Origin: Selaginella tamariscina
Lineage: Eukaryota; Streptophyta; Lycopodiopsida; Selaginellales; Selaginellaceae
Reading direction: 5' to 3'
Assembly (NCBI GenBank): GCA_003024785.1
Contig: PUQB01000533.1
Span: 78,500 to 142,499 of the forward strand
Length of the DNA: 64,000 nucleotides
How positions within the stretch are numbered: position 1 is the stretch's first letter; each line of letters begins with the position of its first letter. Shown here in pieces: positions 3,677 through 64,000 of this stretch. The notes beneath the pieces are model-generated. The model was not told the origin of the DNA. It saw only the letters and a list, made by a program, of their open reading frames with translations, and ran no database searches. The position numbers and the translations under genes are program-made.

Positions 3677-6600
3677 TATATATACATATCCATATGGTTG
3701 GAGATATACATAAATACACAGAACTTATGCATGTGGAATGCATAAACATGCAGCAGAAAGACAAAGTATGAAGATGGATACGTTTATGTAATTTAGTATG
3801 TGAATTCCTGGCTATGTAATATCTATCTACTAACAATGTTTTAGTAGTGTACATAAAGATACTAATATCTGGATATTTATTCATGTGTTCTCTCTCTCTC
3901 TCTCTCTATCTATCTCGCTCTCTGTGTTTGTACTGAATAGCAATGTTGACAGGAAGAGGACATATTCTCAACAGCTTTTGGTCTACCCGTAGACGAGAAC
4001 GACAGTGATTGTTTAGCAGTTCTAAATACCGCTGAAGAAGTGTGTACAAGGCAGCTTCGGAACGCTGAAAAGAAGAATAAAAAAGGTAAATTAATATGAC
4101 ATTATCTGTGTGTGTGCACACGCGCGCGTGCTTTGTAAAAAGTAACATCACACGGTATTATTTGTGTTTACATAATTATTCGTGAAGGTATATGTTGTAG
4201 ATATTCAACCTTTACAAGACGATGAAACACTTGAATACGGGTTTTGTCAGAGCGTTCTTTCTCGTTTACGCTTTCGCAAGGTAACACACGCACGCAGATA
4301 TAACTCAAGCTATGGGAATGCATAAATGTATATAGTCTGTATGGATCTCTTTACGTTTACTTACGTTCTATGGTGTGATTATTTTGATTTTTGTTTCTAC
4401 ATTAGTACTAGTCAAAATATGTGTTCCTATTTTCGATGGTCTTGCATATAGAACATTAAGCTCAGTGAGAAGAAGAACGGACCAGCAGCCTTTAGCAGTA
4501 AGAATCATTGGATATATACAATCTACTTGTATTATGTATATGCTATGTACATGAAGTAAGCGTGCTTCTGAACAGTTACATATAAAGTCCAGGCTATTTA
4601 GTGTATACCGAGGCACACACGTACACATACACATACACACTCACACTCACACGTTATAATTTATATTTGCAGGCTTATTATCAAGCTCTAGTGCATATGG
4701 AAAAGCCGCAAGGAAGGTATGCATATAGTATCTAATAGTGAAGTATGTCTACTGAACTATATATCAAAACATACATGTGTGGTTTGACAGGGGTTTAGAG
4801 ACGGCACGAAAGCATATATCAACAGCGCTCTCGGAGCTTAAATTAATACGTAGCTCGTCTGAGTTTCTTTCTTCACGTCATACCTCTTCAGAGGATTGCT
4901 TAACAACGGCATCTAGACGGAACGTTATTGGTTTCAATGAGAACATCAACAGAAATCTGTTGCCACCTACACCTCCTCGGTCTATGAAAATCCTGCCCTG
5001 GTCCGAGGTAAGCTACACACTTGTCTGTGTGTGCGCAACACACATACGTAAATATGTGTATCTAAATGTATGTATATGCAGTAGTGGAGTATATATTTCT
5101 ATATACAAGTATAATTGTAGTGTATACATATATATTATTTTATCATGTTCATATTGCATCATTAGTCTGTCAGGCCTTGGACTACTTTGAGCGTTTACTT
5201 CGGGATTTGGACCGTGTATGTACAGTACCTCTACATATTGAGCTCGAACCTCTAATTCAATTAATTGTGGATTTCCAAAAATCCCATCCAGATCTTGTTG
5301 CAAGATCTCGACTGCAGGTGTGTGCGCGTATAAATGTATATGCGTGTCTGTATTATGTATGTTTGTACGTATATGTGGCTGTTCACATAATAAATACATC
5401 GAGCTATTTGTGCTTAATAAGAACACACATATATATATGCATGTATATGATATGTGTATATATAATTTAGGCTAATTTATTTATTTTCAGTTGCTTGCGT
5501 TACAAAATAACAAATTATTTGGAATGCGTACAATTCCTGATGTGATTTACAAGTCTATTTATCGTCAACATGAGCCTGTTCGTGATACGGGACTAAATAA
5601 TTTTCTTCAGCAAACATCATTTGTAAGTTGGCAATTTGTGTGTGGCGTTCGTGTTTTGAAACATCTGTAATGAAGCATATACGTTACTGTTAAGCTATTT
5701 ACATAATATGCAGATAAACATATGATGTGTGCGTGTGCGTGTGTGTTTATGTGCGTGCGCGCAAGCGAGTGTGTTTGTGGAGCTAATGGTTTATATGCAG
5801 TTGATCATCAGTTTGTTGAAGATATTGTGTTCACATCCTGCTTGGCAATGTAGGAAACTTGGAAAAGCTTTAGAAGACTGGAGCAATCTATTCCAGCAAG
5901 TAAGCATAATAATGTGTACTATAAAATTAGTATCATTATTAATGATTAATGAGTTTTATACTAGGTTGACGTCATTGGAGATCCTTCTGAAACAGGTGAA
6001 ACGAAGGTGTCTCTCTCTCTCTCTCTGTCTCTCTCTGTCTCTCTCTCTCATATGCAGATAACTTTTGCAGAATATAGCTCCAATTGTGACTTGGATAGCC
6101 TGTCAAGCATCGTGGATAGCAAAACAATATCTAATGTTGGGATTCGATCTTGAACTCTATTCATTAGATGAGCATTGCATGATCTACTGGTGACTCTCTC
6201 TCTCTCCTCTCTCTCTACATGTGTATATCTCTTACAACTTTATAGAAAACCAATGTTTTATGGTATATATAATTAAACTTCTTTCAAATTATTTTTATAT
6301 GCAATTCACATGTCACATATACGTGTCTGTAATGCACAGATTATGAACTGAACATGCACTTACAGATTAACTAGTAATTGTATGTTCAGTACTATGTTCT
6401 TGTTAAAGAAAGTATATAATATCAACTATCTATATTAACATTTTACATTATGCAGGTACCTTGATCATATACTTCTCACTTACAGGCATTACAAAATGGA
6501 AAGGGACCAGATGTTCGATGCAAAGAAAACTGAGACTGCTGAAGCAGGTGCCTCTCTCTCTCTCACTCTCTCTCTAATGTTATGATTGATATTATATTAT

Positions 6601-8155: not shown

Positions 8156-9263
8156 TCAGGTCCTTGTTGGTACATTTCTTGGAGAGCGTCTAGGGGAGGA
8201 CCTGTACCTGGTGGGAGCGCCATTTCCATTACTCTTCTGGTAAAAATTCCCATTCATTATGACAGGCCTGGGTCGAGTCGGGTAGTAAGCACTAGGGTTT
8301 GGTTGACCATGGTTGACCTGTCCAGTGACGTCACTCGTCACCTGTAGAGCTTCCAGCTGACGGACGACCTCCTTCATATCCAGCCTTGACTTTGCATCTC
8401 TGCTCAGGCACTGTGCTGCCAGCTGTGCTGCCTTTTGAAAGGGCTTTGACGGGCATTGACCGTCAAGTGTCGGGTCAACCAGGCGGAATATCCTCCTCTT
8501 GTCGTGTAGATACGGTCTTGCCCATTCTACCAGGTTGTGTTCGCCTGTCGCCCTTGACTTGTCCATCGATCTCCTCCCTGTTAGAAGCTCCAAGAATACC
8601 ACTCCGAAGCTGTATACGTCGCTCTTCGCCGTCAGGTGGCCTGAAATACAACGGGTATATATATACGTTAATCTGTGGGAAATACGTACCTGTCATTACG
8701 TATTCTGGAGCTGCGTATCCGTATGTTCCCATGACTCGAGTGGAAACGTGGCTTTTGTCGCCTTCCGGTCCGTCTTTTGCAAGGCCGAAGTCGGAAAGTT
8801 TTGCGGTATAATCCTGAATGAAAGTACATATCATATATATATATATATATGCGCGTGTGCGTGAAGAATAACTTACATGGTCCAGAAGAATATTCGAGGT
8901 CTTGAAATCGCGATAAATCACAGTTTTCTCATGGAGGAAAGCCAGGCCTTGTGCTGCTCCCAAGGCAATCTTCATCCTTACAGCCCATGTTAATGGCAGT
9001 GCTCCTAACACACTTAACCAGTTAATTAACCTGTAGTTCTCTCAAAGTCACACACACACACACACTTACACTTACACTTTCACACACACACACACACACT
9101 TACTTCGGAAAAGATGGTTTTCCAAGCTTCCTCTCGGCATGAACTCGTACACGAGTAGCCGATGGTCATCTTCAGCACAATAACCAATTAGCCTTACAAG
9201 ATTAAAGTGGTGCAGTTGGCCTAACACATTCACCTCCGCCTAAAACAACTTGCTAAGTTTGCT

Positions 9264-33757: not shown

Positions 33758-34746
33758 CTATGTTCGCCATGCTGCATCTAAGGACGCATCACCCTCTATA
33801 AACCACACCGGGGGCTGCCATCTCCAACATATTATCGCTCGCGTACTCCCGGGAGTCCTCACCAACCGCCCAAGCGCAGGCAGCCATTGTTCTTCATACA
33901 CCCTATATTCACCTATGTCGCATGTAGCCCGTGCTTCCTCATAAGATGCCGCCACCAAGGACACCAATGTTACCCACAAGCATGCTAGGGTCCGCTGCAA
34001 ACCCCACCTGTGCCCTTGAAACACCTCGGCATTTCTGGCTCTCCAAATCGTCCACAGTGTGGACCCCCGCAAAAGGTACCATTGGTTCAACCATAAACCA
34101 GGCGGTTCCTCCATGATCACCTGTGTTCCGCCTGGATCAAAACTCGGTCTCTCCTCCAATCTCCCTGGAGTGCTCCATACTCCTGCAGACGCCCGTACAT
34201 GCACAACATGCTCCCCTAAGCAAGCTGTCTCCCATCCTATTGTTGCATCCTCTGCCCTGCTCAACCTTTGCACCAGTGCCATGGTACGGTACCATATAGC
34301 CCTTGCTGCTCGGCAGTCCCACAAGCAATGCCTTTCCGTCTCAACCAGCCCACAACACGTACACAAATTGCTCGGCAATCCTCTGATGTTAGCACGCACC
34401 GCTAAGCTGTCCTGCAACAACATCCACATAAACGTCTTGATTCCACTTGACCAAGACCCTGTCCAAAGTTCTCGTCCGAACGACCGTGCAAGCGACTGTG
34501 GAAGGCCCACCCGGCACATATGTTCTTCCAGTTTAGTAGGCGCACGAGGCCCACTAAATGTCTCTCGCCCGATTCTGGGTTCATAAGCAAAAAAACCCCG
34601 TCCAACCGCGGTCCGCCACTTCCACATTTCGGTCCATGTCCAACTCTTCCACTGGTTGGGCTCGAAAGATCACTAAGTGCCTCCACTGCCCATGTGCTAC
34701 CTCTGGATTGATCTCGGGCCGCTTCCTTGCCATATCTACGACTCAA
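33758..34746 (-). pseudogene. LINE ORF2 C-terminal region with zf-RVT zinc motif
   Basis: FMWMLLQDSLAVRANI followed by LCTCCGLVETERHCLWDC is the cysteine/histidine cluster found downstream of the RT in plant L1 elements. The frame opens to 34,627 and is joined to the RT part by a frameshift near 34,600. The last residues before the stop (WFIEGDASLDAAW) faintly resemble the start of an RNase H domain, but no complete domain follows. Confidence 0.85.
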
Positions 34747-34761
34747 ATAAGCTAGATCCAG

Positions 34762-37264
34762 CTAAGTCTGGCAAGGGGAAAAGCATACCGTTTGAGGGTC
34801 AAGCCTGCCATCCTGTCCCACTTGGAAGCTCGCTCCTTCCCCGCGCTCTGTGTCTGCCACGTACCAGACTCTCTCTCCTATCCGGCACCAATCTCCCTGT
34901 CGGTGTTCATAGTCTGGCCATTGCCCTCCAAAGTCTTTCAGCATCTGTTCACGTGTTGACAAGAGGATGATGACTGCCTTCACCTCGCTGGTCGTTAAAC
35001 GCCCCACGCTCCTGGCTGGTTCCCACTTGCGTAACCAATCCAGCATTCTCTGTGGCTGCATGTCCAAATCCTTAAGCTGCCCCACTGTTCGCAATCCTCC
35101 TGCATGCCACCTCCTATACACCACCTTCACACCGAGTGGCATTCGCTCATCCCCAATGGATATCCCAATACCAACGGATGCACAAGTTCATGTAAAAACA
35201 AAGGAAGGGCCAAGAGCTCTTCCAGTCGTGTCGGCCTCATCGGAACAAGAGCCAGCCGAAGTTCCTGCCAATACTTGAGCAACGTTCCACTGTACGAATC
35301 CTGTGCCGAAGGGGTCCTGAAGGGAGGTATGCTAAACATCCACCTGGGGTCCTCTGCCCATTGCAAGGCTGGTGCCATGGAAGATCTCCTCGGCCTAAGT
35401 TGCAGGAACGTTGCACGCATGAACACCTTCCATGGTTGATTACCTGGGAAAAAAGCTCTTACCAGCATCTTGGACATCAATGCTCGTGCCGATGGACCTG
35501 GAGCCAACAATCCCATACCTCCATTCTCACGTGATTGCAAGCAAGAGTCCCAGCGCACTCGGGCTTGATACTTTTGCTTTCTGCTCGCCCCTTTCCAGAT
35601 GTACACCCGCAACAATTGTTCAATCTCCTTGGTATCCTGCACACGCAAGCTCCATACCCCCGTGTAGAACCATAAGCTGCCCAGTAACACCGCATTCGCC
35701 ACTACTATGCGCGCCGGTAATGAGAGAGGGCGGTTGCCCCAACAACTCATCTGCTTGAGGAGGCGTTGAAGGATAAACGCGCTGTGTCGACTAGTGTTGT
35801 ACTCCGCGCCCAACTGAAATCCTAGGTACCGCGTGGTCTGCCCTCTTTCTACCCAAATAAACCCCCAAGCCTCTCCCCATCTTGGGCGTTCCTTGTCACT
35901 AAGCCACACTCCCTCGACTTATGCCAGTTTATCTTACCTCCCGCTACGAAGTTGAACCTATCCAACAGCTCCTTGACGCGGCCTAGGTTCTCCACCGTTC
36001 CTAAGACTAGCAAGCCTGTATCATCCGCAAACAAGCTATCTAGCACAGAGCGTTCCATTGGTGGGCCCAAGTCTCGCAAGGAACCTTGACACGTTGGCAG
36101 TGGGATCCCCGTTGGTCTACACGGCCGGTTACAATGCAGGTATGCGTGAAGTGCTTCAGCTTGCATCAGAAACAGGTATGGAGCCATCGGGCAGCCTTGA
36201 CGAACTGATCTGGTGAGGTGTATCGAGCTTCCCAACCATCCGTTGATCACTAGCCTACTAGTTGATCGTCTATAGAGTCTAGCTGTCCATCGCACAAACC
36301 TCGCTGGAAAGCCTAACTTTCTCATCACCAACTCCAGAAAGTTCCAATCTACCCTGTCATACGCCTTTTCTCCATCCAACAACAATAGACAATATGGATC
36401 AGGTAGGTTACTCGTCCATTCGCTAGCAAGCATCATGGTGGCAACATTCTCGTATAGCTGCCTTCCCTTGAGAAACCCGTTCTGCGCGTTGCAAGCGATG
36501 ACCCTCATTACCGGCTGTAGGCGGTTGGCAAGCGTCTTCGCGTAGATCTTATATATTGTGTTCATCATTGAAATCGGTCTCCATCCTTTCACCTCCGCAG
36601 CATCCCCACTACCTTCCTTCGGAATAAGAGTTACTAGCCCGTTCGTGAACACTTTTCCACATCTGCCTTGGATGAGTCTCCTTCGCCCAATTCCACTCCG
36701 CTAAGACTGCCGCTCCTATCCACCTCCATGCTTGGACGAAGAACTCCATGGGTATGCCATCTGATCCGGGGGACTTGTCTCGCTCATTTAGTGCCCGGAC
36801 TGCCACAAGTAGCTCCTCTTTTGTGAACGGCCTTAGCAGATTCTCCTCCATCTCAGGTGTGACCGCACGAGTTAATGTGGCAAGCACTGCTTCGCATCCC
36901 CTTGATCGTGCCGTGGCCATGGTTCCGCCGTGAAGAGCTGCTGGAAATACTCTGTACCTATTTCTAGCATGCCGTCCACGTCCTCACGAATTTGGCCGTT
37001 CTCATCCCTGAGTCCAAAAATAGGCTTGCCTTTTGTGACTGGGCGGATGGCTCGAAAAAACTCCGAGTTAAGCGTGCGCTCATTCGTGTACCAACGTAGA
37101 TCCCTAAGACGATGACAGTCCATTGCCTTTTCCGCCTCCAACTGTTCTAGATGGTGTGTCAATGCTACTTGACGAGCAGTCAACCATGGGTGTCCGGGAT
37201 AGTGCTTCAACAATCGTTCACTTGCAACTAAGCTCTCGCGAACTGCTCGTATCCTGGTAAACAC
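34762..37264 (-). pseudogene. LINE ORF2 reverse transcriptase region
   Basis: Successive frames (37264-36872, 36920-36609, 36652-35849, 35909-35127, 35142-34762) together spell an L1 reverse transcriptase: NERDKSPGSDGIPMEFF, GWRPISMMNTIYKI, a VRQGCPMAPYLF block and the catalytic FADDTGLLVLG (about 36,000-36,035). At least four frameshifts separate these parts. Confidence 0.9.
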
Positions 37265-40612: not shown

Positions 40613-41284
40613 CTATCTCAGGCAGCTCCTTAGTACCACCCTTGGTAACCGCTGCCAAGCTGCCGCCTGATTTGATAGTGCATCTGCCCGCACATTCTCC
40701 TCCCGTGGGACATGCACCATTTCGAAGTGCTCAAATTGCGTGATCAGGATCATCACACGTTCATGCATTACCCGGAGCGATGCTTTCTTCACGCCTGCTT
40801 GACCTCGAACCTGCTTAGCCATCAATTCCGAGTCGCAAAATGCCCGCACTGACCGCGCTCCTGCACCAAGCGCCGCACAAAGTCCAACTGTGAGCCCCCA
40901 ATACTCCGCTTCATTGTTTGTCGCTCTTAAGAGTGGTTGGAGAACTTCCTGTACGATGTCTCCGCTCATCCCTGACAGCACTGCACTCGCACCCGCTACA
41001 CCTTTAGGATTGTCTTTTCCTGCTCCATCTGAATGCAAGTACATCCAGCCGTCGTCCCCCTGCTCACTTGCTCCTAGCTCACTGCCCGAGCCATCAATAC
41101 TCTTACCCGAGCTATCCGCACCATCCGATTCCACTCCTGCCCCTGTTCGATCGCCTTCCATCCCTGCCTCCGGAGCTCTCACACACAGCAGCCCATCCTC
41201 CCTCGACTTTGCAGCACCCCCTGTCTCCTCTGCTTGGCTTGACATCCCTTCCCTCAACATGCGTATCCTCCTCGTCTCTACCAT
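40613..41284 (-). CDS. RNase H-domain ORF at the 5' end of the LINE
   Basis: An uninterrupted 223-codon frame. After a variable Ser/Gly/Glu-rich N-terminus (about 75 residues) comes a type-I RNase H fold: YLHSDGAGKDNPKGVAGASA (first Asp), TNNEAEYWGL (Glu), AFCDSELMAKQVRGQ (second Asp) and VPREENVRADALSNQA (last Asp). All four catalytic acidic residues are visible. It would degrade RNA in RNA-DNA hybrids during LINE cDNA synthesis. In plant L1 elements that carry RNase H the domain is known at the C-terminal end of ORF2; here it is a separate first ORF. Removing the MITE places the gag frame overlapping the end of this ORF in another frame. Confidence 0.88.
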   Translation of the reverse strand: MVETRRIRMLREGMSSQAEETGGAAKSREDGLLCVRAPEAGMEGDRTGAGVESDGADSSGKSIDGSGSELGASEQGDDGWMYLHSDGAGKDNPKGVAGASAVLSGMSGDIVQEVLQPLLRATNNEAEYWGLTVGLCAALGAGARSVRAFCDSELMAKQVRGQAGVKKASLRVMHERVMILITQFEHFEMVHVPREENVRADALSNQAAAWQRLPRVVLRSCLR

Positions 41285-55545: not shown

Positions 55546-58420
55546 CCCTTGTAGTTTTGTTAATTGTGACTTTATCAATGCTTCTTGGCATTCACTCATA
55601 TCGAATGATTTAACATTTATAAAACATGCTAGGTCTTTTTGATTGGGAGAGACATGTTTTCTCTAGGCATCCATTATATCTTTCGCTCTCCTTCTCGTGT
55701 TGCCTTTTTTGTGATTTGAACCATGCCTTAACGATACTATTTTTTGTGATTACTTCAGGTGTTCGATAATTTGACCCATCTAAATAGGCTGATTATATGA
55801 CACATTTGGAGTAATGAGAACCATCATTAGTTTTTGAAGATCTTGGCAGCAATTAAGTATGCTTTAGGTTTTTTGGTTCCTTTGTCCAACAAAGTGTGGG
55901 GTTTGCACTTCCACATCATTACTGGCTTTTATGTCGCCTGTGCTCAGTGATGTCATTTCAATCTCCTCTCGCCACCTTGTTTTAGGCCAAAAAGGGTGTT
56001 GCAATTCTGTACTTGTGATAGTAGGTCCTTCCAACTCTCAAACAACAGTCTCCCAATAGTCAATCACATGCTTATATAGTTCTAAGTAGCTAGTTGCCTT
56101 ATCAGAATTCTTTGGCATCGATTTTTGAACCCATGCCACATATTTTATGATGCCATCAATAATAACCTCTTGTTCCTTGAGCTGGGCACTCAATGGAATA
56201 GGGTCTGGTTGTTCTTCTGGGAGAAGTAGCTTTCCATTCTCTCCACTTTTGAAGAGCATTAACCCCTCTTTCGGTAACCACTCATGCTCTGATGGCCGTA
56301 CTTGTACTGCATAATAGGTATACCATCTCGTATGGAGAAAAAGAATTGTAGCGGCACAAGGGACCAACTAAAAGAATCACTTCCTCTTTTATATACTCCT
56401 TGAGAAATTTTTTGAAGTCTGGCACCTTAGTCATAAGCAAAGCACAACTTTTTTTGGAGATGCAGTTTTCAAAAAGATTCATCATATGTGGTAAGGTAAG
56501 TGCACTTGTCCTTTTTGTAGAGTTGGAGACCTTGTTGAAGAACGCTCAATATCTTCATGAGTGTGACCAACCATAAGAACTGAGCATGATTGTCTCAAAC
56601 ACACCTTTGGCAACAAGCATTGACAAGTATGCTAGCACATATCTAGAAAATAAAGTAAGTATAACTTGAGAAACCCTTAAGTAAAATGATTTACCTATTT
56701 TGTTTGTCTGCACAATTATCCATCTGTAAAAGCAAATGATGAGGAAGCTTATTTGATGTTGAGGACACATGTACACTATTTGAGCTAGATCCCTCCACTG
56801 AACTAGAACTCTCAACAGGGCCATCTGTTTTTTTTGCAGGCTACTGACAATGCTCTCTATATTCCCAAGTAGCCTCAAGTGCAGACGTGTTCATGAGAGC
56901 ATTATGTAAAGGTTGAAGGTGTTGTTTCTTCACTTTGAGATCACTGATAGGACTTGTTATGAGTGGGCTTCAAGATTTTTGAAACACATGGCCAATGACC
57001 CAATAGTGAAATTGGAGTCACTAGACCAATGTGGAGTGAAAAGTGTCCATATGACTCACAACCGTGTTCATGTGTTAGCACACTTGTCAATGAAATCGGA
57101 AGTTTCATGACATTTCCAAGGCCACTTTGGTGTTGAAACGAGCTTTGGAATGTTGGCCTTTGAATGATCCATCTTGTCATGGATTAGCAGCACATGTACT
57201 ATGATGGGCGTGACACAGAAATCATGCGGTGTGCATAGTACTGAGACCGGCAAGTTTGTGTGCAATCATGTGGGCTCCATCTTCTTTGAATGGCAATGAT
57301 CTCCACCAAGGTTTTTGCACAAGCCTCTGCAGCCTTCAATGATGTACAAGTGTCACACTTGGAAAAGCTAGAGTGTTTTGTAATCTTCACATCCTTAAAA
57401 TGAGTATTCCATATATTATTGAAGGTACCAGTGCATTGCTTGCAGCCCCATCAAGCTGAGGCACTTGTTCACATGTTCACACAGCTTCAATTGAGTGTAG
57501 ATCGAAGGTAAAACCTTGAGATTTTCCCTGACCCCTGCATTTGTGGTTCGGCATTTGTGAGGCATCCTGTTTGCATTTGCTTCCACAAAAGCCTTGAGTA
57601 TCTTTATGGCTGCCATAATGTGAGAGTGGGTTTTGACCAAGCGAGTGTTCCCATGTATTGAGGTTCGCACTCCATCTAGCCACTCATCCCTCCGACAGTA
57701 GAACGTGGTCTTTGGGATCCCGTATATACTGTACCAAGCTTTGAAGCAGATGGCCACCTTATTAAATACCATAGATGTACTCTGATAACCTGTGTCCGAG
57801 GCCATTCCATCAATACACCCAGTTAGTGCAACATATACAAACTCATGCCTTTGTTTTTGGGTGAGCGTACGAAAGACATGAAATTTCATTCTGGTCTGCC
57901 ATCTGACAACACTTCTTCTTACAGCAGTCAATCGTGGAAATGTTCGTACACTTTCGGAAGATGTAGAATCCATCTTCACCCTCTTGCTGAAACTTGCAGG
58001 GAAGATCTGCAACCCATGAATCGCCTTTTTTCTTACAATAGGACTAATACAAGGAACCTCTTCAAATATGAATTGTTCTTCTGGTTGTTATTATTGAAAT
58101 CCAACCCAGAATATGTTGAACCATCTTGCCGTCTTAATTTAGATGTTCGCCACCTCACGAGGGATCCAGGATGTAATGTGCTATTAGGTGAAACCTTTGT
58201 CACAACTACCCACGAAGTCACCTAGTTTTCTCTTCTGACACTGCTTCCATTGGATTTATAGTTGTGATGATGCCTCTCCCAACCTTAATCTCATGAAGAA
58301 AGAGAATCACCTCATGAATCACAGCAGGCAAGCCATCATCTGGAAAAACTCGTGCTACTGTTTGTTTGTGACTCTGCATATATTTTGTGTCAGCCTTGAC
58401 TTCATCCAAATTCCACAATA
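55546..58420 (-). pseudogene. DUF7869-type (transposase-like) gene, decayed
   Basis: On the minus strand, pieces of a protein widespread in eukaryotic genomes as DUF7869, thought to be transposon-derived: an N-terminal part (58418-58218), a larger frame 58012-57416 with YGIPKTTFYCRRDEW and a CRTTNAG-type segment, KCDTCTSLK (about 57,340-57,370), HDKMDHSKANIPKL (about 57,150-57,190), QMDNCADKQNR (about 56,700-56,730), then after a 60-base intron-like gap YVLAYLSMLVAKGVFETIML and, in a shifted frame, MVGHTHEDIE (about 56,545-56,575), followed by the KSCALL and WETVV end. The D-N-C and GHTHED blocks are the family signature. Multiple frameshifts and stops make it non-functional. Confidence 0.8.
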
Positions 58421-58755
58421 CAGGAGAACCTCCTCAATTCCATTTCCGGAACCTCAACATGCTTGTAAATGGTGTTCACCCATACGTACACACAAGATCC
58501 TTGGGCAATATTGTGACATGATACATTATCATCTCGAACTTCCACAGTTCCAGTGCCAACTATCTCTGTTCCGAAGAAGACATACTTTATCTCCAGTATT
58601 TATACATATTGTCCTGCACATAAATAATTGTTATTTATGATATCTATTTATGCAATATTTTTAAGAAATCATAACTGCAGTTGCTTAATAATATGCATGT
58701 GCAATAATACATAATTATGTATAAAGATAATATTTCATGCTTTATTAATACAACT
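58421..58755. other. Spacer upstream of the DUF7869 relic; no gene seen
   Basis: The first part may still be the 5' end of the relic; the rest is AT-rich and leads into the palindrome array. Confidence 0.5.
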
Positions 58756-59092
58756 GATGGGCGGGATTAATCCCGCCCACGACTCCCTTCGACGAGGAAC
58801 GATGGGTGGGATTAATCCCGCCGCCGACTCTACCCCTTCGGAGTGAGTCGGCGAGATTAATCCTGCAGACGAAGCTACCCCTTCGGAGAGAGTTGACGGG
58901 ATTAATCCGCCGTCGATTCCCTCCCACGAGAAAGAATCGGTGGGATTAATCCTTGCCGCTGGATCGTCCTCGTCGGAGAGAGCGGCGGGATTAATCCCGT
59001 TGCGGACTCCCTTTGACGAGGAAGAAGCGGCGGGATTAATCCACCCCGGATCTTCCTCATCGGAGAGGCGGTGGGATTAATTCCGCCCACAA
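58756..59092. repeat. 45-bp-period palindrome array (8 units)
   Basis: Eight GATTAATC(or T)-centred palindromes with centres at 58768, 58813, 58858, 58903, 58947, 58992, 59037 and 59078, i.e. spacings of 45,45,45,44,45,45,41. The best site is a perfect 20-bp palindrome (GGGCGGGATTAATCCCGCCC, 58759-58778). Most spacers contain a second, weaker dyad around CCTTCGACGAGG or CCCCTTCGGAG. The GC-rich dyads stand out from very AT-rich surroundings. Confidence 0.95.
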
Positions 59093-59114
59093 CTTTTTTG
59101 AAGTTAGGATTTCA

Positions 59115-59385
59115 AAGAGATCTCGAGATAAATCCTGTCCATAAATATTTAAAATAGGGAAGTGGTGGCGAGATTAATCCTCCCACCCCTTCTCTGCCTC
59201 CTAAAATGATTAGCGAGATTAATCTCGCAAAATAATTCTTTTTAATAAATTCAAGTAACTCTTTATTAATTGAGAGAGTTATCGACGGGATTAATCCTGC
59301 CACCTCTTCAAATAGGGGATTAATCCCACCGCCCCGGCTAACTGAGAATATTAAGTTAGAAGTATATTTAAACGGGATAAATCCT
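59115..59385. repeat. Scattered additional GATTAATC palindromes
   Basis: Six degenerate copies at irregular spacing: CGAGATAAATCCTG (about 59124), GGCGAGATTAATCC (59167), GCGAGATTAATCTCGC (59212-59227, perfect), GACGGGATTAATCCTGCC (59284), GGGGATTAATCCC (59315) and CGGGATAAATCC (59372). They extend the array toward the HAD gene. Confidence 0.85.
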
Positions 59386-60018
59386 TAATGAAATATATTG
59401 TAATTCTAATGCATTCCTAAACCCTTAAATTCTAAATTTAAGAGAGAATGTAAGAAAGTGAATCTTTATAACTATATCTAATTTGTTTATATACTTACTT
59501 GTAAACAGCACTAAAGGCGTCGTGCTTTCCTATAAACAATAGTGCACCCAATTTAATGTCGTTCCTGAGCTGATCACTAAGAAGAAAAAAGAAAATCTAA
59601 GAGTGAAAAATAAAGAAATAAAGAAACCCTTGCCGGAGAAAGAACCAGATCTGAATTTGAGTGAGAAATTAAATGCATTTTTAAATTTACATGTCAGACC
59701 GATAATACTTATGTCAGAAATTCGAAATTATGCACGTTGTAACTAAAGTGGGCATGATACGTGAAAATGGGAATATAAAATAAATTACTAATTAATACTT
59801 AAGTTTTAATTATTAATTAATCATTTAATTAATATGTAATTAAGCCTTAAATATTAATTAATTAATTAATTAATCCTTCAATAACCTTACTTAGTAAGGA
59901 ATATTCCTAAAATATCTTAGAATATTCATATTATTCTAAAAATAGTTTACAATAATGAAGAAATACTATCAAACATAATTACAAATGAAATCATTTTCTT
60001 ATCAACATGTTAATTTTT
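59386..60018. other. 3' flank of the HAD-like gene
   Basis: AT-rich; 59768-60018 is shared with 14,230-14,620 beside the decayed HAD copy. No gene seen in 59386-59767. Confidence 0.6.
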
Positions 60019-61194
60019 TTATAAATACTTTCTTTCTATCATACAAAGAAATCTTTTCATTTTGTCTAAATCATCACTCTCCGGATTAATCAAATCATTT
60101 TGGTCAATATCTTGATGTTGTTGCCACCACTTAACACTCTCACGAATGCAATTGGGAGTTGCCATCCTTGTTAATACATAAGATGTGATAAGAGAAGGTC
60201 TGCATAAAGGCTCATCTAAAAACTGACGTTCCTTAAGAATAATATTATAAAGCGCCCGGTTGCTATCCTTCATTTTATAAAATTCAATATCACGAGAAAG
60301 AAAAGCTTCAGGAAATGTATGATACGGTGGATACTGCTCACAAAAATTTTCGAGATTCTTCTTTCTGAGGCACGTATCCAAGTAGTTCACTAGCTCATCC
60401 ATGATATCGGTATCAGAATATGGATCGAAAGTGATTGGATGAATACAAGCAATGTTTTGGTTGAGCATAGCCTTCTGAGGAGAGTCGTCTACTACTAAGA
60501 TATGTGCATTCTTCGTTATCCTTAAGCGACTGATCTCCCCATGAGTCCCAATTATTCTTTCATTCTTGAAGAAGTATGGCTTGCTTTCCTTTCTTATATT
60601 GTGAAATTCGAGAGGTTTATGACACATTCGCTGGTCAAAAATCCAATCTTTACGAATCACCTCTTCTGCAACACTACAATGTTTCTTAAGTAAACTCAAC
60701 AGCGGTGTTAAGTTATGAATCTGCATGCATGACCAAATCCCCACAAGCGCACCCATCTCCTTAAGCTTTTGAAAGAGACGATCCAACCCTGGACGAAAAA
60801 TAATATCATATCGAAATTTACCATGACAAGGAATGAAATCTCCTTGTTTGATTTCTGTTTTTCTATCCTCGGGCCTTTGTCGATGAAGCAGAACACCATT
60901 GACATCCAACAACACAATATGGCCATGAGTAACATGAGATAGCGTTGCCTCTTGAATACTTTGCAAATCACTTGTTTGCTCCCTTTCACATTTATCCGTT
61001 GCCACTATTTCGTTGCCTATCCCTTCATCATTTAATTGTACATCATCCTTACAAGATTCAGATATTGCATGCGCTGAAGAAATTGATTTCGGAACTGAAG
61101 CCAATAAAAATGATGATGCAAAAACTGAAGTGGCCCCCATGGTAACGATGTTTTGAGCTGCATTATTATCCATTTCCTGCATGAACTCTGTCAT
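60019..61194 (-). CDS. HAD-superfamily FCP1/SCP-like phosphatase-related protein
   Basis: Single-exon frame of about 391 residues starting at ATG 61194 (MTEFMQEMDNN; an upstream in-frame stop lies near 61,243). The first 90 residues are variable. The HAD fold then shows HIVLLDVNGVLLH (motif I), FRPGLDRLFQKLKEMGALVG, GIWSC (motif II Ser) and ILVVDDSPQKA (motif IV, two Asp), the layout of FCP1/NIF-type phosphatases. In motif I the second Asp, the general acid/base in DxDxT/V enzymes, is Asn (DVN), so classic phosphatase activity is doubtful. The C-terminal 130 residues are charged and unassigned. A decayed relative with the same DVN change lies at 14.2-21.9 kb. It is transcribed in the same direction as the ParB-methyltransferase gene, 270 bases downstream of it. 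Confidence 0.85.
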   Translation of the reverse strand: MTEFMQEMDNNAAQNIVTMGATSVFASSFLLASVPKSISSAHAISESCKDDVQLNDEGIGNEIVATDKCEREQTSDLQSIQEATLSHVTHGHIVLLDVNGVLLHRQRPEDRKTEIKQGDFIPCHGKFRYDIIFRPGLDRLFQKLKEMGALVGIWSCMQIHNLTPLLSLLKKHCSVAEEVIRKDWIFDQRMCHKPLEFHNIRKESKPYFFKNERIIGTHGEISRLRITKNAHILVVDDSPQKAMLNQNIACIHPITFDPYSDTDIMDELVNYLDTCLRKKNLENFCEQYPPYHTFPEAFLSRDIEFYKMKDSNRALYNIILKERQFLDEPLCRPSLITSYVLTRMATPNCIRESVKWWQQHQDIDQNDLINPESDDLDKMKRFLCMIERKYL

Positions 61195-61466
61195 TCTGAC
61201 ATGTGGCACAAGAAATTGTCGCCAAACCCCTCTCTTACCTCATGGCAATGCTGAAAATCCATGTTCTCAATTATTTCATTACATCTGCAAAATGATAATT
61301 AGCTGACCTTAAAATTATCAAGGTATATTATTTACCTTGTTAATGTGTGACCCATGTTTGAACTAAAAGCTTCATTAATCCTTGAGAATTTATTTTCTGT
61401 ACAAATATAAAAGAAATATACAAAAATGCCTTATGTTACACTCATTTACAACTATTCATCACTCTA
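61195..61466. other. Spacer between the HAD-like gene and the ParB-methyltransferase gene
   Basis: AT-rich. 61250-61376 is shared with 21,745-21,870, where the duplication ends at AAAGCT. 61383-61475 is shared with 13,305-13,425. It must hold the 3' end of one gene and the promoter of the other. Confidence 0.6.
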
Positions 61467-63850
61467 TCAATTCATTATCAATTCTTCTTCGCTATTACCT
61501 TCTGAATGAGGCGAAGAAGGTCTAAGCCGCTTGTGAGATGGTTCAAGATCTTCTGCATCTTCTATTGATGTTTCCATGGGTCCTGGAGTGTGCGAATGTT
61601 CTGTACTCCTCGAGATAACTTCCGGTCTAATATCTGATTGATGTTCGTTCTCAGACTCCGAGATTGAACCAGATTCACCTTCAGAGCTATCGCACTTATC
61701 TGGAGGGAACTTTCTCAAATACGCCTTTATGGATTCGTTGGGGTACTCAGTTGAGACCCAATCTATCCACTTGTTCAGGTCCTCAACCATGGTCTTATCC
61801 TTCTCAACGGCAAACACACATGTATGCCGAAGGTAACACTCCTTCAAGACGGACCCCCTAGTGCAGTAGTCAAAAACCCACGCATCACTGTGAGGACCCC
61901 TGATCAAGTTGACGATGCTCCGTGCCGCTTGACTTGTAATGTTTGGATAACGTACATTGCCGAATACGTCACTCATACCTATCGGTGTATCGGATGGAGG
62001 TTCAGGGCCGTTGGAGTGCAAACAGATGCCTGGCCAGTCATTTGGAAGCTTGAAATTGTTTGGCGCATTCCTAACAACCAAGTGAACAACAGTATCAATG
62101 CACTTGGGATTAGCATCGTTCATATAAAATCCTGTCCAACGATGTCTATTCTTCTTGGCGAAGGCGAAGGCAAAAGTATCGGTGACATGAGCAAGAATCA
62201 AGAAATAAATACCTGAAAAAGTAGGTATCAGTGAAGAGCGCAAGCATGAATTCAATAATAAATACCTTCTATGTATATGCTTGCACGGCTAAGTTTCTCC
62301 ACCAGATCCTCTAGTGCCCTATCTGTCGAAAGATTTTTTGACACCCGCCGATCCATCACGAACAATTGAAACGGTTTCCTACAAGCAGTGATGTTACCCC
62401 ATAAAGTCTCCGAATCTAACAACAAACATCTGTAGGGCTTGTCGTGATTCGTAGCATCCTCCTTTATAAGGTTCAATTCGGTTCTCCGCTGCTGAAGGAC
62501 TGCCATAAGAGAAGGCGTCATCCCAATGTTCTCCTTTTTGGCGTTGGCGTGCAATAGATTCTTGCCTAGATCTTCCGATTGGTTCACCCATTCGACAAGC
62601 ATATCATCGTTCGTCACATGCAAATATTTGCTAACCTCTTCATATGTTGAAGTCGAGGTCCAACCCAGTTTGTGGCAGTGTATTCCCAACCACTCCTTGA
62701 AATGCCTGACCGTCTTCAACTCCATTGCCTTGAGATGAAAAGGAGAGGTTGGGCTGCTGTTATTAATTTGTAGTTTGCCATCGATCACCAAATCAGCCAA
62801 GACTTCCATCTCCTCCATCGTTGTTCCATTTAAAGGCTTCAACCATGTGAGCTTGAAATCGTTGTCTACATCCTTTGTAGATTGAACAGACTTAGCCTTC
62901 GGCGTCTTACTGGGTTTCTTTGCAGACTTTTCTGAGGGCTCCCCTTCACTTGTCTGCTTCTTCTTCAGTGTTCCTTTTGAAAAGGATTCCATAATCCCCA
63001 ACCATTTGGCAAAGATCCTATCTTCGGGGCAAGAAATCAACATCATCAGAAATGATGTTTCCTTCCCGCCCACCTGGGCAAAATCAACTGCTGCAATTTC
63101 TTCAACTCTCTGAGGAAAAAGACAGATTAATATACCGGCGAGATAAATCCCGCCCAAACAATTTGCTTACCCGGTATTCCGCAGATTGTGTATTCCCTGC
63201 GGTAGCTCTTTGTGGTCGCTGAAGAGATTCCCACACGGCTCGCGTGTGTTTAAACTTCTCCCATATTTTGCTGTTGTAGTGGTTGGTGTCGGCAGCGTCC
63301 CATTCCGCCGATAACTTATGGTACTGCTCGATTGTGAGATTCGGCTTAGCTAAAAACGCCGATCTTTTTGTCAGCTTCTCACGGGTATGCTCGGAAAGTT
63401 TTGTTGCCATCGTTCCTTTGTTGTGTTCATCGAGAAGTCGTTGGGCTGCCGTTATTGTGTGCTGGCCACTAATGATGTAGTACTTGATAGATCTTTTATT
63501 CTCCGTCTGAATCTTCATGAGTTGTTCTGGTGTTGTGATCCAGACTTTGTCAGCACCCTTCCTTCTTTCATAGTATGGACACAAAACAGCATTATGTGGA
63601 ACGGTATAAGAATTGTCGTCCTTCATCTTCTCCATGAGCTCAGCTACACGTTCCTGGTTGAGTGGCCTGTAATTGAAGTTTGGGTTGACGCTGCAATATT
63701 TAACCCTACAAGGATAAATCTTATCATCCAACATCATTTCCTTGTGACTTATTGCAGCATGAGATGCCACAGGTGCAGCTGACAAAACGATTGATGATTT
63801 TCTTTTGCGATCCGAATCAACATGTGTGATCCCCGACTGCAGCTGTTCTA
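61467..63850 (-). CDS. ParB-like domain fused to a degenerate DNA-methyltransferase-like domain (5' end uncertain)
   Basis: Three exons on the minus strand are clear: about 63850-63171, 63109-62266 and 62212-61467 (introns of 61 and 53 bases, GT-AG, in phase). Exon 1 encodes a ParB/Spo0J-like N-terminal fold: VNPNFNYRPLNQERVAELMEKM, then YYIISGQHTITAAQRLLDEH, matching the ParB sequence with GQHT in place of GERR. Exon 2 holds a helical region with a Lys-rich linker and leads into FQLFVMDRRVSKNLSTDRA, where the permuted N4/N6 methyltransferases have their DPPY/SPPY motif; here it is not conserved. Exon 3 encodes WVFDYCTRGSVLKECYLR...FAVEKD, at the place of the SAM-binding DPFxGSGTT...GIE motif, also altered. 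An acidic Ser/Glu tail ends the protein. ParB-methyltransferase fusions are known in bacteria and phages. With both methylase motifs degenerate this is probably a non-catalytic DNA-binding derivative. No good ATG is found; an acceptor-like CTGCAG near 63,841 suggests the gene continues upstream. Confidence 0.72.
63135..63156. repeat. Single palindrome unit in the first visible intron of the ParB-like gene
   Basis: GGCGAGATAAATCCCGCC matches the unit of the array at 58.76-59.38 kb (TTTATC-centred variant). It occupies about one third of the 61-base intron. Confidence 0.85.
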
Positions 63851-64000
63851 GTGTTCTCGGCACACTCTTCCAGCTCCCGAAGCTTCCTAAGCAAATTGAA
63901 CGTGATCTGTAGAGAACCTGAGACCGAGCCACCTCTCAATCTCCCTTATGATGTCGCTGTGTTCTTCTTCAATGTGAAGAGGGAGATTGCTCCACTTGCT
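63851..64000 (-). CDS. Partial upstream coding sequence, probably of the same gene
   Basis: On the minus strand 64000-63910 reads SKWSNLPLHIEEEHSDIIRE and continues IERWLGLR. 63,905-63,830 reads NLLRKLRELEECAENTRTAA in a different frame. Both look like helical, charged protein rather than chance. They may be an upstream exon of the ParB-like gene or of a neighbour, joined by a frameshift or by splicing not visible here because the window ends. Confidence 0.4.

Follow-up and report, generated by a model that had tools for sequence, protein, structure and literature searches.

What is a gene that seems to join a ParB-like DNA-binding part to a methyltransferase-like half doing in the genome of a land plant? 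The question is raised by a stretch of 64,000 nucleotides of Selaginella tamariscina DNA (C875:78500-142499 in a 300.7-Mb assembly of 1391 contigs), hereafter the window, near the right end of which a preliminary description made from the sequence alone placed such a gene. The analysis presented below reveals that the gene is cargo of a giant, recently amplified DNA transposon with terminal inverted repeats (TIRs), and that the same transposon bears, on the opposite strand, a DUF7869 transposase as well as an ORF for a NIF/FCP1-like phosphatase. With respect to function, our favored reading, to which we would assign a probability of about 0.55, is that the gene is a transposon accessory gene with a ParB-like DNA-binding product.

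Structure of the accessory gene

Three exons on the minus strand join into one open frame of 783 codons that ends in a stop at 61467. Exon 3 (61467..62212, with the stop codon at 61467-61469) encodes the motif-I-like VFDYCTRGS and an acidic tail; upstream of it, intron 2 (62213..62265; 53 nt, phase 1, GT-AG) is followed by exon 2 (62266..63109), which encodes a constrained middle portion and the motif-IV-like MDRRV, and by intron 1 (63110..63170; 61 nt, phase 0, GT-AG), whereas the ParB-box-like YYIISGQHTITAAQRLL lies in exon 1 (63171..63932). In six older, diverged copies of the gene, most of the splice sites survive: donor 1 is intact in five of these, a one-base deletion adjoining it in the remaining copy; acceptor 1 has CAG in four copies and CAA in the other two; all six retain an intact donor 2; and acceptor 2 keeps its AG in five and has lost it in one. 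Thus, the initial recognition of a spliced gene with introns is borne out. The extent originally given, 61467..63932, holds at the stop codon and fails at the other end, where 63932 is merely the upstream limit of one open frame, and coding-like sequence in another frame continues upstream, beyond the end of the window (L011:9163-9882 in a complete copy of the transposon). Furthermore, indels of 1-2 bases are concentrated, across the copies, in a hotspot at the upstream junction of exon 1 (~63868-63942). Given this hotspot and the coding-like sequence in the other frame, the N-terminus of the accessory protein is provisional, and the 5' limit of exon 1 probably lies outside the window.

When 14 young copies are compared with L011, the differences are mostly indels of 1-3 bases at recurrent sites, with few substitutions. 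These recurrent indels are likely to be systematic long-read sequencing errors, which may have created artificial frame breaks in the assembly.

The host transposon

The left 4.3 kb of the transposon (59730..64000), out of ~14.65 kb, fall within the window, with sharp boundaries that are common to the copies; a complete copy is found at C553:335577-350228 (loci L011 and L012). The left 27-bp TIR, ATGCACGTTGTAACTAAAGTGGGCATG, occupies 59730..59756 on the plus strand and matches the reverse complement of the right end in 25 of 27 positions. For the pairing of ends, 92 of the 100 left and 99 of the 100 right ends listed were typed, and 32 pairs of typed ends, located on one contig 2-35 kb apart, were obtained among the matches listed. 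Identical 4-bp flanks, indicative of target duplication, are present in 18 of these 32 pairs, compared with 0.81% of 992 mismatched pairs; among the remaining pairs, 13 lack a match of 4 or 5 bases and one shares 5 bases. The first six copies read had given the impression of a transposon without target duplications, the 4-bp duplication being visible only in C91, and this impression was overturned by the 32 pairs. In 8 of the 32 pairs, the span is only 4.0-12.0 kb. The flanks are AT-rich, with a preference for T at the position three bases outside the left end, where it is found in 51 of 94 cases. Genome-wide, exact transposon ends number at least 669 (left) and at least 707 (right), with no occurrence of the reversed patterns; the end counts are too low because neither pattern admits T at one of the flank positions. 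An LTR element was considered and dropped, given that terminal repeats of at least 150 bp are missing from the C553 copy.

The scale of the amplification is apparent from several counts. At a first look, a 701-bp piece of exon 2 retrieved 1779 candidates, and all 40 scored matches were 100% identical; a 34-mer from the gene occurs exactly 1438 times, and a 26-mer from the transposase 1801 times, in this 300-Mb genome. If the copies are full length, 1438 copies of ~14.65 kb would amount to about 21 Mb, or 7% of the assembly. These numbers do not fit the single plant gene of the preliminary description; its suggestion of domestication likewise finds no support, the exact matches to the probe exceeding a thousand and lying inside a transposon. 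Conversely, its alternative, a mobile-element protein, turned out to be correct, and its argument that the gene is nuclear rather than a contaminant is upheld by the kept introns, the copy number and the element ends with varied flanks.

The right half of the transposon encodes, on the strand opposite to the accessory gene, a DUF7869 protein (Pfam PF25273, E=1.1e-26), in which inspection by eye suggests a D1 motif, IHDKMD, a D2-like LQMDKN, and GHTHEDID; we read this protein as a predicted DDE transposase. When the joined transposase was used as the query, 97 of 3447 candidate proteins matched at E<=0.001, all 97 of them with PF25273; these relatives include proteins of the liverwort Riccia, of bivalve molluscs and of a coral. 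A literature search found no open-licence paper containing "DUF7869". Among the matches listed, the transposase motif lies on the opposite strand and on the expected side, 5-13 kb away (median 9.4 kb), in 50 of 86 gene copies, and is present only in another arrangement in 3 of the 86. The second passenger gene is a 396-aa ORF on the minus strand (60019..61209) with the NIF/FCP1-like phosphatase domain (Pfam PF03031, E=7.5e-12); the corresponding ORF in C553 is shorter than this window copy.

As for the classification of the transposon, Sola2 elements generate 4-bp AT-rich target duplications (PMC3627910), and a Sola1 element of Physcomitrella is on record (PMC9033089). The Selaginella transposon resembles Sola elements in the 4-bp target duplication and the TIRs, and large accessory-carrying Sola elements are known; judging from these features, membership in the Sola superfamily is plausible.

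Affinities of the accessory protein

The accessory protein contains YYIISGQHTITAAQRLLDEH at the place of the ParB box, FQLFVMDRRV at the place of motif IV, and DAWVFDYCTRGSVLKECYL..VFAVEKD at the place of motif I; the motif reading of the preliminary description, applied to these three places, is plausible rather than proven. In the six older copies, the motif IV place reads DRRV in three, DRQV in two and DQWV in one, and in the five older copies that cover the motif I place, it reads DYCTRGS or a close variant (DYYTRGS in one, with one residue masked in another). None of these variants is of the DPPY/W type expected of motif IV, and DYCTRGS is not of the FxGxG type expected of motif I. Motifs I and IV of methyltransferases are required for catalysis. 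The observation of the preliminary description that both methyltransferase signatures are altered thus applies not only to the window copy but to most of the family.

The folds themselves, ParB and methyltransferase, which had been proposed along with the motifs, are not recovered as significant matches. Searches of Pfam, PHROGs and NCBIfam with the spliced protein and with its pieces produced nothing significant; the top-scoring hits, to PHROG 21535 at E=0.053 and to PH_BUD3_C of Pfam at E=0.038, are weak and regarded as chance. None of 5900 candidate proteins is a relative of the accessory protein at E<=0.001, and none of 6440 candidates in a second protein search at E<=1. One stretch of the viral contigs fits a sequence pattern and none encodes a relative, a tblastn search of phages with the accessory protein gave no match at E<=10, and the PDB sequences yielded two chance-level matches to designed proteins (E 1.9 and 5.6) with the protein and none with the alignment.

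Comparison with eight phage ParB proteins by hhalign, a set that includes L042 and L047, both of which lack the motif I region, gave probabilities of at most 3.2%, such that there is no significant profile similarity between the phage fusions and the plant protein. Nevertheless, the two parts of the protein differ. For the ParB part, shuffled columns reach the observed score in 3 of 150 trials with local alignment and in none of 150 with global alignment, and YYIISGQHTITAAQRLL lines up in register with the phage ParB box, a weak signal at the same probability of 3.2% or less. For the methyltransferase part, shuffles do as well in 70 of 150 trials with local alignment and in 46 of 150 with global alignment; with motif I alone, they do so in 46 of 200 and 45 of 200 cases, although the local alignment then pairs the residues in the register expected. 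Against an HMM of the phage proteins, the real protein is no better than shuffled versions, 367 of the 503 shuffles that scored (out of 1000 made) being as good.

Structure prediction was run on single sequences because relatives outside the genome were not found. AlphaFold models of a 189-aa piece of exon 1 and a 169-aa piece of exon 3 have mean pLDDT of 43.5 and 35.3, respectively. In the exon 1 model, the succession of strands and helices is compatible with ParB, albeit at low confidence, and Foldseek with this model gave 194 matches at E<=10 and none at E<=0.001. The structural check proposed in the preliminary description was thus carried out on these exon pieces; models of this quality are too poor for judging the folds, and the search with the first piece produced nothing significant. 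On balance, the motif, its register and the shuffle comparison make a ParB-like fold of the accessory protein probable, whereas the derivation of its second half from a methyltransferase is, in our estimate, a slightly less than even proposition.

Selection on the accessory gene

To characterize selection, substitutions common to the older copies were counted relative to the window, with ~27% expected to be synonymous. The six old copies are a small, hand-chosen sample, picked via one changed glycine codon. Exon 1 contains 13 synonymous and 8 nonsynonymous shared substitutions and exon 2 contains 15 and 4, respectively, whereas exon 3 contains 10 and 26, the latter including stops. In a finer breakdown, from which one of two near-duplicate copies was dropped, the ratios of synonymous to nonsynonymous substitutions are 4/2 for the N-terminus, 8/7 for the ParB-like part, 2/1 for the remainder of exon 1, 13/3 for exon 2 before motif IV, 5/6 from motif IV to X, 1/9 for the motif I half and 6/11 for the tail. 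Judging from the synonymous excess, the active lineage seems to have been under constraint in exons 1 and 2; no clear constraint is visible in exon 3.

Palindrome arrays

The transposon contains tandem repeats built on a perfect 18-bp palindrome, GGCGGGATTAATCCCGCC. In the right 9.7 kb of the C553 copy, there are 26 exact sites, and 44 at <=4 mismatches, whereas positions 1-57000 of the window contain none at <=4 mismatches and block shuffles 0 or 1. The sites form two arrays, at ~5.2-6.9 and ~10.0-11.2 kb of the transposon (L012:295-1832 and 5246-5977, ~45-bp spacing), with the spacing mostly 40-46 bp. Inside five complete copies, the sites at <=2 mismatches number 41, 31, 46, 47 and 44; outside these copies, a single site was found in 61,933 bases, in C495, where an additional, truncated copy lies next to the complete one. 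Between young copies, the left 0-6 kb differ by 0-5 mismatches/kb and the array regions by up to 105/kb, which implies that the arrays evolve fast. These arrays, which amount to 31-47 palindromes per complete copy in all five copies read, are the new feature of the present transposon.

One further site lies within the accessory gene itself, in intron 1 (63137..63154), with 2 mismatches to GGCGGGATTAATCCCGCC; an intron 1 site is present in all five complete copies. Taken together, the arrays and the intron site suggest a self-targeting system that would resemble either ParB/parS or VANC.

Comparison with known elements

The closest published counterpart is Sola1-1_Ec32, a 21.5-kb element of the brown alga Ectocarpus in which a gene for a protein with ParB and N4mC/N6mA methyltransferase domains lies opposite the transposase; the same report names parallels in green and red algae and suggests for proteins of this type that they bind the element encoding them and modify it (PMC12477816). 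The Selaginella transposon has the same layout, i.e., a giant DNA transposon with a gene opposite the transposase that encodes a ParB-box-like part followed by a methyltransferase-like part. In contrast to the Selaginella protein, in which neither domain gives a significant match and both motifs are altered, both domains of the Sola1-1_Ec32 protein are recognized and the methyltransferase is predicted to be active; moreover, the host here is a land plant, and the passages on the brown algal element do not mention palindrome arrays. The earlier statement that this architecture is bacterial or phage and not standard in plants accordingly needs to be divided: the architecture has been published for eukaryotes, in algal transposons (PMC12477816), whereas among the best-ranked results of a search of open-licence titles and abstracts, no ParB-methyltransferase transposon was reported from a land plant. 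Because a ParB plus methyltransferase gene opposite the transposase is on record for the brown algal Sola1 transposon, the Selaginella gene is probably a degenerate variant of this kind of accessory gene. The phage ParB-methyltransferase fusions share the order of the parts, with the ParB box first and motif I near the C-terminus, but lack introns, and their motif I region is intact in six of eight proteins.

A second parallel is found in the VANDAL transposons, where VANC proteins bind short motifs that are amplified as tandem repeats and bring about a loss of methylation there (PMC5735166). The Selaginella transposon resembles these MuDR elements in combining an accessory protein with a short motif that is repeated in tandem in non-coding DNA, the accessory gene's introns included. 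For VANC, both binding and demethylation have been demonstrated, whereas the accessory protein described here shows no evidence of kinship with VANC and is a putative DNA binder. Finally, fungal DNA transposons of several superfamilies carry genes for TET/JBP dioxygenases (PMC12730594), which are likewise epigenetic accessory genes but belong to a different enzyme family.

Proposed function and alternatives

The favored reading can be spelled out as follows. The product would be a DNA-binding protein of ParB-like type whose other half, methyltransferase-like, no longer has its catalytic motifs; its role would be similar to that of the ParB plus methyltransferase proteins of giant algal transposons except that, given the loss of these motifs, it would act as a reader rather than a writer. 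This protein would bind the palindrome arrays of the transposon and the site in its own first intron and, once bound, would coat the transposon and thereby favor its expression or transposition, for example by countering host silencing as VANC proteins of the Arabidopsis VANDAL elements do. Binding to the palindromes is, at this stage, a tentative proposal, and should it occur, we consider an anti-silencing role an even bet. The most elaborate version is a plasmid-style, partition-like module, with a ParB-like protein on a dead methyltransferase and 31-47 parS-like palindromes per complete copy at ~45-bp spacing, one of these in the intron of the gene itself, self-coating of the element, escape from silencing and, as a result, well over 1000 copies in the 300-Mb genome; we regard this version as a rather unlikely, speculative extension.

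The alternative that fares best, and comes not far short of even odds, is that the palindrome arrays serve the transposase or a host factor while the accessory protein does something else. The arrays are at least 1.8 kb from the intron site and close to the transposase half, and the shared element is the sole tie between them and the accessory protein; in addition, the half-site GCGGGA/TCCCGC is reminiscent of E2F sites. The presence of the intron 1 site in all five complete copies argues against this alternative, with the qualification that this site departs from the palindrome by 2 mismatches in the window copy and, among the older copies, by 3-4 in five of the six, the sixth having none that was found.

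It is less likely that the accessory protein is unrelated to both ParB and methyltransferases, being instead a transposition cofactor that binds the ends or internal repeats, or some other anti-silencing factor, with motifs that arose by chance or convergence. Such an origin would account for the empty family, sequence and structure searches and for a methyltransferase part that aligns no better than shuffled columns. Against it stand the ParB part, which outscores most shuffles, and the location opposite the transposase in a giant element, which fits the published ParB-methyltransferase gene.

A protein that has a ParB-like domain, is still active as an N4/N6 DNA methyltransferase and marks its own element would have a precedent in the algal proteins, for which this was proposed in Ectocarpus (PMC12477816). 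Such an enzyme is improbable here considering that motif IV reads DRRV, replaced by DRQV or DQWV in half of the six older copies, that motif I reads DYCTRGS, and that a methyltransferase profile signal is lacking. Domestication as a plant gene and contamination from a bacterium or virus, for which nothing speaks beyond the first motif impression, are both very improbable in view of the 1438 exact gene 34-mers, the mostly kept splice sites, and the transposon ends with varied flanks and target duplications. Copy number and element boundaries contradict both, and contamination has been dropped.

As far as we have searched, genes combining ParB and methyltransferase in giant eukaryotic transposons have been reported only for algae. 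The Selaginella transposon presents the same layout together with eroded catalytic motifs and candidate binding sites, which opens the function to a binding assay. If binding is confirmed, a bacterial DNA-partition fold would have been reused by a eukaryotic transposon for marking its own DNA, and the extreme copy number would be an outcome of this self-marking.

Neighborhood of the transposon in the window

Immediately to the left of the transposon, positions 58001-59729 of the window are part of an older, inverted relative, 87-90% identical in two stretches, which contains 12 decayed palindrome sites; sites at ~45-bp spacing occupy 58760-59330. The young transposon seems to have inserted into this older relative, with homology on the right flank restarting 7.7 kb on. 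Elsewhere in the window, Reverse transcriptase, zf-RVT and RVT_3 matches at 33758-36652 and 40613-41284 denote a non-LTR-like retroelement, and positions 8475-9011 match the Protein kinase domain (E=1.2e-15).
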